Source: an uncultured Bacteroidales bacterium
Lineage (GTDB): Bacteria; Bacteroidota; Bacteroidia; Bacteroidales; Paludibacteraceae
DNA: 47,162 nucleotides
Assembly (NCBI GenBank): GCA_900319035.1
Contig: ONMU01000010.1
Location: forward strand, 1-47,162
Direction of reading: 5' to 3'
Shown: in pieces, positions 29,266 to 33,298 of the stretch
Layout of the letters: the number at the start of each line of letters is the position of its first letter
How positions within the stretch are numbered: position 1 is the first letter of the stretch
Notes under the pieces: generated by a model
What the model was told of the DNA's origin: nothing
Database searches by the model: none
What the model saw: the letters and a program-made list of their open reading frames with translations, nothing else
Translations under genes and position numbers: made by a program

Positions 29266-30222
29266 ATGACAAAAAACATACTAATATTAGGGAATGGTTT
29301 TGATTTAGATTTAGGCTTAAAAACCAAATATTCAGACTTTGCCAATTCTAGTTTTTGGCCTTGTAATGATGGCGATAGTATTCCTCATTTAGAAGAATAT
29401 TTGGAGAAAAAAAGAGATACTGAGGCTTGGTTTGATATAGAGAATGAATTGCTGAATTATGCGACAACAGAGGCTCAACAAAGATATAGCCCTTTTGGGA
29501 GTGCAAAATATAATGCAACCGAAGATATGGCTTATTTTGCTAAATTACAAGATGCATTATGTAAGTATATATTGAAACAGCAACAAAATGAAATAGCAAA
29601 AAAATCAGTTGCAAGTCAAGTTCTCAGAGCAATAATCAACAATGGATATTTTGAATCTTTCTATTCTTTTAATTATACTAATATCAATACTATAGCAAAG
29701 AAATTGGGAATCAATAAACCCAAGAATTGTGTTTATATTCATGGAAATGCGGATAGTAATTCTATTATTTTAGGTGTTGATGAATCAAAACTGTTAAAAG
29801 GATATGAGTTATTGCATAAAACAATGAGTCCGCATTACAGCTCACATAATATTTTTAATGACCTTTCAGCTGCAAGCGAGGTTGTGATTTTCGGATTGTC
29901 ATTTGGCAAAATTGATTATACATACCTTGATAGATTTTTCAAATCACAATCAGAACGGGAGCCTATAGATGAAAAACTTAAAAAGCATATTACCATATTC
30001 ACAAAGGATGAGAATTCAAGAGTTGATGTCTTGAATAGATTAGAAGCTATGGGGGTTAACAGACAAAATTTGTACACTCAATCGTATTTTCAAATTATTC
30101 GAACAAACGATGATTCAGATATGAATCTCCTAAATGAATTCAAGATTAGACTGAGAGAGCAAAGAAAGAATATAGAAACGGAGAGAGCTTTAGAAACAAC
30201 GGCTCGAATCATACGTGTTTAA
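29266..30222 (+). CDS. AbiH-family abortive-infection protein
   Basis: A 318-residue protein of the AbiH phage-defence family. The start ILILGNGFDLDLGLKTKYSDFANS is the diagnostic motif. Further conserved pieces are FYSFNYTNI, CVYIHGNADSNSIILGVDE and VVIFGLSFGKIDYTYLDRFF. The single gene AbiH aborts phage growth in lactococci by an unknown mechanism. The sequence is markedly AT-rich: 29281-29340 holds only 16 G or C. Nearby core genes are much richer, which suggests transfer. Not preceded by an obvious -33/-7 promoter. Confidence 0.9.
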   Translation: MTKNILILGNGFDLDLGLKTKYSDFANSSFWPCNDGDSIPHLEEYLEKKRDTEAWFDIENELLNYATTEAQQRYSPFGSAKYNATEDMAYFAKLQDALCKYILKQQQNEIAKKSVASQVLRAIINNGYFESFYSFNYTNINTIAKKLGINKPKNCVYIHGNADSNSIILGVDESKLLKGYELLHKTMSPHYSSHNIFNDLSAASEVVIFGLSFGKIDYTYLDRFFKSQSEREPIDEKLKKHITIFTKDENSRVDVLNRLEAMGVNRQNLYTQSYFQIIRTNDDSDMNLLNEFKIRLREQRKNIETERALETTARIIRV

Positions 30223-30289: not shown

Positions 30290-31477
30290 ATGACTGAAAT
30301 ATATTTAAAAGATTATCTTTCCGAAACAGCATTTGAACTTATTAAAGATCGAGCATATTGGAAGATAAATAAAAATAGTGATCTCCCATGGGATGATTCT
30401 TCATACCAATTGGCAGAGAGTGATTACAGTGGGAGTTGGCGGTGTAATGTAGTTCATGCCCATAAAGGAGATGTGTTAGTTACAATTATGCTATCTGATT
30501 CAAATGAAGATTCTAATGTCGGCATTTTCTCATTTACTATACAAGCTCAAAGGGAGGGGTTCTACGTTACAACTTATCCTTTACAATATAACAACTGGAA
30601 ACATACATATTGGGATAAAGCAGAAGAGATCATCAATGGAATAAAATTCCTTGCCTTTGAGACCATTGATGAATGGGAAGATTATTACTTTTCCAACATT
30701 CAGAAATATTCTTCTTTAGTGGATGAGGATTTATTTGAGGGGAAAAAAGTGATAAAGTGGAATCAAGGTAATCGGGAACAGAATGAGTTTGCGTTTAGTT
30801 TAAATGCTAGTGATAGTATATTTATAGAAACTAGTGAATTAGGTGTCTTTTTAAAATATTATTGGAATTCATCCGTAAGAAGAAAAAGCGAATCTGGGGT
30901 TGGTGATACCATTGTTCTGCTTTTGGATAATAAAGAGCAAATAAGTTTTGTAGCAAAGGACTATCCCGTAAAAAGCGGGAAAAAATTTTTTTATCAATTT
31001 CAGATTACTCAGGACATTATAGATAAATTATGTTCACATACTATTTGTGCAATAAAAAAAACATTTGCAAATGGTGATGAACCACAAAAACTTGTTTGCA
31101 CCCCTTATTGTACTATAATTTTTAGAATTTGGCTCAAGAAACATATGCAAATTTGCGAGCAATTAGGATATAGGCCAAATGATGAAATTGAAGAAGAAAT
31201 AAAGACAGAAGCTAATTGCTTCGTTTATCTAATGTTAGATGAAATAAACGGATATTATAAAATCGGAATCAGTAACAATCCTAAGTATCGAGAGCGGACG
31301 CTTCAAAGTGAAAAGCCATCAATTAAATTAATATGTGCAAAGGAATTTCCAAGTAGAAGGATAGCCGAAGCGATCGAAAGTGCTTTACATAAAGCATATA
31401 CCGCAGAACATCTACGAGGAGAATGGTTTAACTTGACGGCTAAAGATGTCCAAGAGATAACTCAAACACTCGCGTAA
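30290..31477 (+). CDS. Unknown protein with C-terminal GIY-YIG/T5orf172-type domain
   Basis: A 395-residue protein, equally AT-rich. Residues about 305-390 match the T5orf172 (GIY-YIG-like nuclease) pattern: CFVYLMLDEINGYYKIGIS, NPKYRERTLQSEKPSIKL, AEAIESALHKAYTAEHLRGEWFNL, with the expected Tyr, Arg and Glu. The N-terminal 300 residues (WKINKNSDLPWDDSSYQL, SFTIQAQREGFYVTTYPLQYNNWKHTYWD, VFLKYYWNS) are not recognised and are probably mixed alpha/beta. It lies 67 bases after the AbiH gene on the same strand and ends at a terminator. It is plausibly a defence effector partnered with AbiH. Confidence 0.7.
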   Translation: MTEIYLKDYLSETAFELIKDRAYWKINKNSDLPWDDSSYQLAESDYSGSWRCNVVHAHKGDVLVTIMLSDSNEDSNVGIFSFTIQAQREGFYVTTYPLQYNNWKHTYWDKAEEIINGIKFLAFETIDEWEDYYFSNIQKYSSLVDEDLFEGKKVIKWNQGNREQNEFAFSLNASDSIFIETSELGVFLKYYWNSSVRRKSESGVGDTIVLLLDNKEQISFVAKDYPVKSGKKFFYQFQITQDIIDKLCSHTICAIKKTFANGDEPQKLVCTPYCTIIFRIWLKKHMQICEQLGYRPNDEIEEEIKTEANCFVYLMLDEINGYYKIGISNNPKYRERTLQSEKPSIKLICAKEFPSRRIAEAIESALHKAYTAEHLRGEWFNLTAKDVQEITQTLA

Positions 31478-32455: not shown

Positions 32456-32533
32456 CAGCCGATTTTGAAATCTACCCCCGTTTGGAGCGCCAAACGATGC
32501 CGCGATGGTGGAATAGGTAGACACGAAGGACTT

Positions 32534-33218
32534 TGACGAAACATTGGAGTTTATGAGTAAACGAAAATGGACAGATCAGGATTTTGTAGAAGCAGTACGT
32601 ACAAGTTATTCTTACGCGCAAGTAATTGAAAAATTACATTTGCGAGTAGCCGGTAGCAACTACGACACTGTGAAACGCAAAATTCAAGAGTTACACCTCG
32701 ACACGTCTCACATGACAGGAAAAGGTTGGAACCAAGGAGCACGGTATAAACCTCTCCGAGAGCCTCAACCGCTCAGTGAGATTTTGGTGGCACATTCAAC
32801 ATTTGTTAACGCAAATCATCTGCGCGAACGATTGTTACGCGAAGGTATCAAGCAACACAAATGCGAATGTTGCGGACTGACAGAATGGTTAGGGCAACCT
32901 ATTGCATTGGAGTTACATCACATCAATGCCATACGGGATGACCAACGATTAGAAAATCTTCAACTGTTGTGCCCCAATTGTCACGCACTAACTGACAATT
33001 ATCGAGGAAAGAACAAAGGTAAAGAGTGCTCAGGTCGAAAGGCTTGAAGTAGAAGTGGGCTAATTCGGTGAATGGAACAGCCTTTAAATGTTCAGAACGC
33101 CGAGCTAAGTGGCGGTAACGCCTAAATGTGTAGAGACTATATACCCACAACCTAAGTCCTCTGGATAAGGTTAAGACATAGTCCAAGCAGACGCTGAATG
33201 ATCGGCAGCGAATGTATG
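32534..33218 (+). ncRNA. Group I self-splicing intron in the tRNA-Leu anticodon
   Basis: 685 bases ending in the conserved G (33218). P1 can be drawn: exon GGACTT with the internal guide GAGTTT (32547-32552), giving the required U-G pair at the 5' splice site. Core elements after the reading frame: P-like AATTCGGTGAA (33062-33072), Q-like AACGCCGAGCTAAG (33096-33109), R-like GTGTAGAGACTATA (33128-33141) and S-like AAGACATAGTCC (33173-33184). P7 forms from GACTAT with ATAGTC. The insertion site is the one used in cyanobacterial tRNA-Leu(UAA) introns. The 495-base HNH gene sits between P1 and the core. Confidence 0.9.
32553..33047 (+). CDS. HNH homing endonuclease encoded in the group I intron
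   Basis: A 164-residue protein. The N-terminal part (MSKRKWTDQDFVEAVRTSYSYAQVIEKLHL, then TVKRKIQELHLDTSHMTGKGWNQG) is a DNA-binding helical region seen in many HNH nucleases. The C-terminal part is the HNH motif with zinc-binding pairs: CECCGL, LELHHINAIRDDQRLENLQLLCPNCHALTDN, the paired histidines and the final Asn/His. Homing endonucleases cut intronless alleles to drive intron spread. ATG 32553 comes immediately after the internal guide sequence of the intron; a TTG three codons earlier lies within that guide. Confidence 0.92.
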   Translation: MSKRKWTDQDFVEAVRTSYSYAQVIEKLHLRVAGSNYDTVKRKIQELHLDTSHMTGKGWNQGARYKPLREPQPLSEILVAHSTFVNANHLRERLLREGIKQHKCECCGLTEWLGQPIALELHHINAIRDDQRLENLQLLCPNCHALTDNYRGKNKGKECSGRKA

Positions 33219-33298
33219 AAAATCCTTTGGCCAGTGATGGCTGTGCCGGTTCGACCCCGGCTCGCGGTACTAAACAATCACCTCAATCCCTTTTTATT

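Follow-up and report, generated by a model that had tools for sequence, protein, structure and literature searches.

The only tRNA-Leu(UAA) gene found in the genome of an uncultured Bacteroidales bacterium is split in its anticodon by an insert that, from its sequence and its relatives, is best interpreted as a group I intron that is both functional and mobile. As had been predicted from the DNA letters alone, the intron lies on a Bacteroidales chromosome and carries an HNH endonuclease frame. We consider it highly probable that the reading as a whole is right, namely that this is a live, HNH-bearing intron that spreads by homing and that belongs to a family held in common with phages. What would surprise a specialist is the existence of one tRNA-Leu(UAA)-linked family of HNH and intron that is common to phages and Bacteroidales. 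The stretch of DNA that we analysed, here called the window, comprises 47,162 nucleotides of contig ONMU01000010.1 (assembly GCA_900319035.1; Paludibacteraceae); loci and genomes are cited by L and G numbers. The parts of the split gene are:

32499..32533, + strand: 5′ exon of tRNA-Leu(UAA), through U34 (ARAGORN on the joined exons)
32534..33218, + strand: 685-nt group I intron with terminal G (RF00028, 35.8 bits; R2, 127.8 bits)
32553..33047, + strand: predicted HNH homing endonuclease frame, filling the P1 loop (PF01844, phrog_10822, dN/dS)
33024..33027, + strand: internal guide sequence GAGU, within the HNH frame (pairs with exon ACUU at 32530-32533, with a U34·G wobble)
33219..33269, + strand: 3′ exon of tRNA-Leu(UAA), CCA not encoded (ARAGORN on the joined exons; sequence)

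A split tRNA-Leu(UAA) gene on a Bacteroidales chromosome

ARAGORN makes no tRNA call on the unspliced window; once 32499-32533 and 33219-33269 are joined, it calls tRNA-Leu(taa). The exons thus make up the complete tRNA-Leu with anticodon UAA that the original prediction had described, and the insertion point between U34 and A35 and the terminal G of the intron are likewise as it gave them. The window is chromosomal, with gyrB, a class I tRNA synthetase, iPGM and DHQ synthase present. Compared with intact tRNA-Leu(UAA) genes, its exons agree at 77-80 of 86 bases with six from the same genus and at 56-64 of 86 with three from phages. The nearest named genome, RUG715 (L066), is 97.3% identical across 1506 nt around the locus. 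The sources named for related records are cattle, sheep, deer and horses, and the host of the split gene is a probable gut bacterium.

An AbiH abortive-infection family protein (PF14253, E 2e-30) is encoded at 29266-30222, ~2.3 kb upstream of the split gene, and between the two, at 30290-31477, lies the frame of a protein with a C-terminal T5orf172/MUG113 domain. Elsewhere in the window, 1454-1526 matches RF04319, the Bacteroidetes FopS sRNA family, with 72.3 bits.

The source genome (2.48 Mb in 97 contigs, 91% complete) yields 38 tRNA matches, one of them weak and untyped, among which the Leu anticodons are CAA, CAG, GAG and UAG. A search of this 91%-complete genome turned up no further tRNA-Leu(UAA), either as an uninterrupted junction or as a second 5′ exon, so that the other intact copy that would have made the locus a remnant in the eyes of the original prediction did not appear; since tRNA-Cys, -Ile and -Trp are likewise untyped, the tRNA list is incomplete and the absence of a second Leu(UAA) gene is unproven. 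Because no other copy was found, splicing of the window intron is to be expected and is probably essential; the frame at 30290, a neighbour of the split gene, has UUA for 13 of its 29 Leu codons.

The intron has a covarying group I core

In a 1.2-kb search, Rfam model RF00028 matches the window intron at full length with 35.8 bits (E 3.4e-7), short of its curated cut-off of 50 bits. A covariance score below threshold had been named at the outset as evidence against a group I intron, and to the letter that is the score obtained. Group I identity is borne out instead by the covarying core and by R2, a model built from 13 bacterial and phage introns, none of them from the window's genus so as to avoid circularity, which gives 127.8 bits (E 2.3e-35, against E 0.98 for its next-best match in the window). 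At the tRNA-Leu introns of ten related loci, the RF00028 cut-off is passed by two, an ORF-less intron of the same genus (L283, 51.2 bits) and a phage intron (L124, 63.3 bits), and the other eight fall below it. The core comprises the following elements, named by the usual P nomenclature of group I introns:

33030..33047, + strand: P2 hairpin, overlapping the last HNH codons and stop (7/7 pairs changed on both sides; 88.8% of cells paired)
33055..33059, + strand: P3 5′ strand, partner 33144-33148 (100% of cells paired; 5/5 pairs changed on both sides)
33064..33069, + strand: P4 5′ strand, partner 33099-33104 (78% of cells paired; 4/6 pairs changed on both sides)
33135..33140, + strand: P7 5′ strand (R), partner 33178-33183 (S) (97% of cells paired; 5/6 pairs invariant)
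33149..33172, + strand: P8 hairpin (two helices, with 99.1% and 83.0% of cells paired)
33192..33210, + strand: P9 hairpin, short (read from sequence)

Across 28 of the 29 cores (L069 was left out, and the cores were cut to begin at GAG), 87.6% of the 1048 cells in the P2-P8 structure hold standard pairs. With partners shuffled the figure is 65.1%, and with the structure slid it is 31-42% (maximum 42.2%), the structure having been drawn on the window itself and so being favoured over its slid versions. Of five measures, one (pair types) was equalled by 9 of 500 shuffles. Both sides changed in 28 of the 38 pairs and a P3-P8 core is present, in which P4, P5 and P6 are weaker; in the 28 cores P5 is paired in 71% of cells and two P6 pairs in 61% and 74%. 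As five of its six pairs are invariant, P7 is neutral on pairing, speaking neither for nor against it.

A short P1 encloses the endonuclease frame

The internal guide stands directly before P2. GAGTGC occupies this position in all 21 parsed introns of the genus, and GAG is invariant in the 28 aligned cores, which were cut to start there. P1 in the window is only 4 bp long, with U34 opposite G33024, giving a U·G pair at the 5′ splice site of an intron that ends in G. A different P1, formed with GAGTT at ~32547, was rejected, as this sequence occurs in only 8 of the 21 genus introns and is absent, for example, from L042, L053 and L064; the U·G pair that had been predicted is present, at G33024, but the pairing near 32547 that was proposed with it is not conserved.

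Short introns of the family run from the exon through a short loop to a guide GAGU or GAGC, and then directly into the P2 hairpin. In the window, guide and P2 (33024-33047) fall within the last HNH codons, so that the C-terminus of the HNH overlaps both elements and the frame fills the P1 loop. At L081, L083 and L120, unlike in the window, the frame end adjoins the R element. We propose that the pre-tRNA would fold into a P3-P8 core and a short P1, in which exon ACUU pairs with GAGU at 33024 and the HNH frame forms the loop, and that guanosine attack would be followed by exon joining.

The HNH protein is intact and under purifying selection

The frame runs from ATG 32553 (164 aa), or alternatively from TTG 32544 (167 aa), to a TGA at 33045-33047. 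Its product is an HNH protein, as had been proposed: PF01844, the Pfam HNH family, matches above its cut-off (E 1.2e-5), the frame is intact, and phrog_10822 matches residues 4-162 of 167 (E 7e-48). The residues of the HNH motif and Cys pairs (C104, C107, H122, H123, N135, C140, C143, H144) are invariant in 9 of 9 sequences. The open frame is under purifying selection, with a dN/dS of 0.06 against L285, L227 and L287, and of 0.01-0.13 among genus HNH frames for pairs with unsaturated, computable dS. Structure prediction of the HNH alone gave a mean pLDDT of 49.6, and no relative of solved structure was found by sequence.

The family entry for phrog_10822 names no target, whereas the subfamily near the window's protein is tied here to tRNA-Leu(UAA), and from this association we infer that the target is the intronless tRNA-Leu(UAA) gene. 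The HNH would recognise that gene and cut or nick it near the anticodon, and repair would then copy the intron into the cut gene.

These data also bear on whether the locus could be a decayed remnant, or an assembly artefact, in a dispensable gene. Such an account could draw on the MAG-like nature of the data and on the damaged HNH frames of 6 of the 21 parsed relatives. It is scarcely credible for a locus with an intact HNH at dN/dS ~0.06 and a covarying core, with a near-identical counterpart in L066 (97.3% over 1506 nt), and with no further Leu(UAA) gene detected in a 91%-complete genome.

Intron-bearing and empty genes occur within one genus

A live intron that homes into empty genes, the reading we prefer, should be seen against its distribution. 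Among 178 genomes of the window's genus, 24 carry the intron core and 90 an uninterrupted junction, so that intron-plus and intron-minus alleles, a search for which had been suggested as a check, both occur. The two states are found together only in G027, and neither was found in 65 of the 178, as incomplete genomes or variant junctions. In the 21 introns that could be parsed (three of the 24 remained unparsed), the HNH is full-length in 10, damaged in 6 and absent in 5. Empty, HNH-bearing, HNH-damaged and ORF-less genes are the states of a homing cycle, present in different species rather than seen as events, and one genus holds all of them together. The patchy presence, the purifying selection on the HNH and the phage relatives described below argue for the mobility that the original prediction had expected.

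Four of the five ORF-less introns lie in exons with GAGGGACTT, and all 16 parsed introns with an intact or damaged HNH lie in GAAGGACTT, a split that would reflect either co-conversion of exons or a lineage effect. In G027, C21 (L232) holds an ORF-less split tRNA-Leu(UAA) and C48 an uninterrupted one; the former has a poorer match to the window exons, 67 of 86 bases, and may be phage-borne.

Beyond the genus, a pattern scan was run on one genome per species and is no census; its S-element was chosen so that most cyanobacteria would be left out. It returned 32 stretches, 28 of which are introns between both tRNA-Leu(UAA) exons (18 in Bacteroidales, 1 in Ignavibacteriae and 9 in others, among them L058, doubtful as a bacterium). 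L065 and L073 are without a 5′ exon in the stretch examined, and L063 and L068 were discarded as chance matches. These 28 introns, together with the putative ones reported from Beggiatoaceae (PMC4853749), speak against the view taken in the original prediction, by which only cyanobacteria and plastids have introns in tRNA-Leu(UAA). In a sample of the phylum, the core model matches 35 of 395 genomes, the window's own included, in several tRNAs and with some weak E-values; 29 loci of this sample (L234-L262) include a clearly related HNH in L239 (49%) and a weak partial match in L260. Plasmids gave a single partial HNH match.

Phage relatives are tied to tRNA-Leu(UAA)

Phages had no place in the original prediction. 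In IMG/VR the scan pattern occurs on 15 contigs, 13 of which have a tRNA-Leu(UAA)-type 5′ exon 202-926 nt upstream; three of the 13 have identical intron length and ends. Relatives of the HNH were drawn from 209 phage-collection records, of which 15 were examined, from the best 80 of 370 IMG/VR stretches and from 34 stretches of a narrower search. From these, 95 distinct phage HNH proteins were classed by their tRNA surroundings, as a ranked sample and no census.

At or above 45% identity, this ranked sample contains 68 HNHs. Of these, 14 lie inside an intron with a core (L126 and L147 by core match alone, with exons unverified) and 43 lie within 110 nt of a tRNA-Leu(UAA), 32 beside an intact gene and 11 beside an intron-split one. 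The remainder comprise 4 that by this count are at another tRNA-Leu, 2 at other tRNAs, 3 farther off, 1 in a coreless split tRNA and 1 with no tRNA in its stretch. The 27 HNHs below 45% divide into 5 inside an intron, 6 beside tRNA-Leu(UAA) and 16 without a link. 'Introns' called by ARAGORN with no core match (L119, L263, L274) were counted apart; they bear the label intron in one HNH tree.

The 60 free-standing phage HNH loci fall into 29 clusters, 18 of them with at least three tRNAs in reach. The nearest tRNA is Leu(UAA) in 14 of these 18, against 3.04 expected (0 of 100000 draws). For the 43 free-standing HNHs beside tRNA-Leu(UAA), the tRNA shares the strand of the HNH in all but 3 cases, being upstream of it in 34 and downstream in 6, and is on the other strand in the remaining 3. 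That either side and either strand can be used speaks for a link with the tRNA as such.

The contigs of L124 (major head and portal proteins) and L155 (terminase) are firmly identified as phage. L122 and L123 are viral by IMG/VR class, and their checked stretches match DNA polymerase, NrdD and exonuclease, with no Terminase_6N in those stretches; Terminase_6N occurs in 5 of 21 viral records.

Three further phage loci deserve mention. Synechococcus phage S-CRM01 (H4) was dropped as a case, suggested by its annotation, of an HNH in a tRNA-Leu intron, since ARAGORN finds two complete tRNAs with the HNH between them. At L119 (Dulem virus 42, PP511876; 2404-3021), a phage tRNA-Leu is interrupted in its anticodon by an HNH that shares 64-66% identity with that of the window; there is no group I core match and the tRNA halves do not join to a normal loop. 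This may be a dead tRNA or another kind of insertion. In L088 (IMGVR 3300035037_000204), a tRNA cluster contains three separate group I matches, in tRNA-Leu(UAA) and apparently in two other tRNAs.

Bacterial intron cores lie among those of phages

The HNH tree, from which L226 and L081 (both with a short HNH match), viral loci with no HNH match and duplicates were left out, places the ten genus HNHs in one group (97/92), within a group shared with five phage HNHs (L119, L122, L123, L124 and L125; 100/99). In the core tree, phages L122, L123 and L140 (the last on a long branch) join 15 cores of the genus (100/97). Phages L155 and L184 fall together with cores of the Prevotellaceae type, of which two belong to the genus of the window (100/100), and G027's ORF-less intron is placed near phage L177 with weak support (95/70). 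A single Bacteroidales core clade against the phages is rejected (p-AU 1.6e-6; 21 against 19 rows, in a test run without L047 and L232, both also Bacteroidales), and the second core group as a clade alone is not rejected (p 0.375). For the RNA cores, this shows that the bacterial introns form at least two lineages lying among phage introns.

A matching statement that the bacterial HNHs are not a clade was dropped, as p-AU is 0.0007 with L058 and 0.18 without it (quick tree). L058 lies on a Clostridium sp. SUG825 contig (JALFMW010000176) that carries a tRNA array, and its HNH frame contains four TAG codons; it may come from a TAG-recoded phage whose contig was binned with a bacterium.

Because bacterial sequences nest among phage ones, the direction of transfer would have been from phage to bacterium, within an intron family that the bacteria have in common with tRNA-Leu(UAA)-bearing phages, and this suggests that phages take part in the spread of tRNA introns. 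An older origin would make the intron a vertically inherited, cyanobacterial-like tRNA-Leu(UAA) intron that acquired its HNH later. We hold this to be very unlikely: two core lineages occur within one genus with phage rows between them, the HNH nests with phage HNHs, and 24 of 178 genomes carry the intron against 90 that are uninterrupted. Vertical inheritance does accord with the gene, which is that of the cyanobacterial intron, as by general description is the exact site, with the occurrence of introns at the U34|A35 site in several phyla, and with the placement of the 15 window-type genus cores on one side of a branch (93/89, not starred), which fits descent after one entry.

How tightly the HNH and the intron travel together is a separate matter. 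On L122 and L123 the core and HNH trees are consistent. They conflict on L124 and L125, whose HNHs are near the window's and whose cores lie elsewhere, and on L140, where the core is near and the HNH elsewhere; from this partial disagreement it follows that HNH and intron have reassorted at times. The HNH could be a mobile gene that settles within or close to tRNA-Leu genes, with introns also moving by ordinary recombination of tRNA loci. Free-standing HNHs beside tRNA-Leu(UAA) (43 of 68 in the ranked sample, 11 of them beside an intron-bearing tRNA), the differing nearest kin of cores and HNHs at L124, L125 and L140, the variable frame position (filling the P1 loop in the window, ending next to the R element in L081, L083 and L120) and the coreless split tRNA-Leu of Dulem virus 42 all fit such loose coupling. 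It is harder to reconcile with the agreement of both trees for the genus and L122 and L123, and with split and uninterrupted genes being mutually exclusive in the genus save for G027, and we regard it as a doubtful, though quite conceivable, account.

A homing intron shared with phages leaves room for a further and rather unlikely idea, in which large phages with tRNA-Leu(UAA) genes would be both reservoir and vehicle of a dedicated anticodon-targeting HNH, encoded within an intron or standing next to the tRNA gene, that on infection attacks the tRNA-Leu(UAA) genes of hosts or rival phages, survivors gaining the intron and a filled site being immune. If this were true, the chromosomal intron would double as a resistance allele against a phage HNH.

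Relation to known introns and endonucleases

The cyanobacterial tRNA-Leu(UAA) intron lies between U34 and A35, has a compact core and ends in G, and subgroup IC3 is the label of the bacterial tRNA-Leu(UAA) intron family. Compared by description, the window's intron is in the same gene and is alike in site, compact core and final G, and differs from the cyanobacterial one in its HNH frame in the P1 loop, its Bacteroidales host and its nesting with phage introns. In Synechocystis, the tRNA-fMet intron encodes I-SspI, from a nuclease family other than HNH. Both I-SspI and the window's HNH are intron-encoded and specific, in the latter case putatively, for a tRNA anticodon region; tRNA and nuclease family differ.

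Introns in tRNA-Leu(UAA) are classic in cyanobacteria and plastids, according to the accessible part of PMC4033280. Putative group I introns were reported in 2016 in tRNA-Leu-TAA and tRNA-Arg-TCT of Beggiatoaceae (PMC4853749), and so in the same tRNA gene outside the cyanobacteria; in the accessible part of that paper their type is not determined and no HNH is reported, and the span of 353 bases has no room for a window-like frame. SegB, by the accessible part of PMC13096335, is a GIY-YIG endonuclease that adjoins phage tRNAs with no favoured isotypes; the family described here also adjoins phage tRNAs, but is HNH and dominated by Leu(UAA). A 2014 review states, in its accessible part, that known phage group I introns are all in protein genes despite the many phage tRNA genes (PMC3984707). 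Gut jumbo phages with Bacteroides or Phocaeicola as predicted hosts carry many group I introns and HNH genes, in a paper whose main text does not contain the word 'tRNA', and crass-like phages have introns in core genes, as far as the accessible text goes. In open-access full texts, subscription papers lying outside the scope, we found no report of a tRNA intron in Bacteroidota, nor in open-access full texts one of an HNH family tied to tRNA-Leu(UAA); PMC5759034 contains both 'group I intron' and 'Bacteroidales'.

Phage group I introns in tRNA-Leu(UAA) and the tRNA-linked HNH family are now numerous enough for comparison, and an intron of the same kind occupies the one tRNA-Leu(UAA) gene detected in a Bacteroidales genome that has its named relatives in ruminants and horses. 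The movement of tRNA introns among bacteria, their carriage by phages and the effect of an anticodon-aimed endonuclease during infection are thereby made testable.

Another split tRNA was seen in the phylum sample: tRNA-Arg(UCU) is split with a core-model match at L242, L244, L248, L249, L250, L252, L254-L258 and L262, and several of these genes sit between tRNA-Pro and tRNA-Cys genes.
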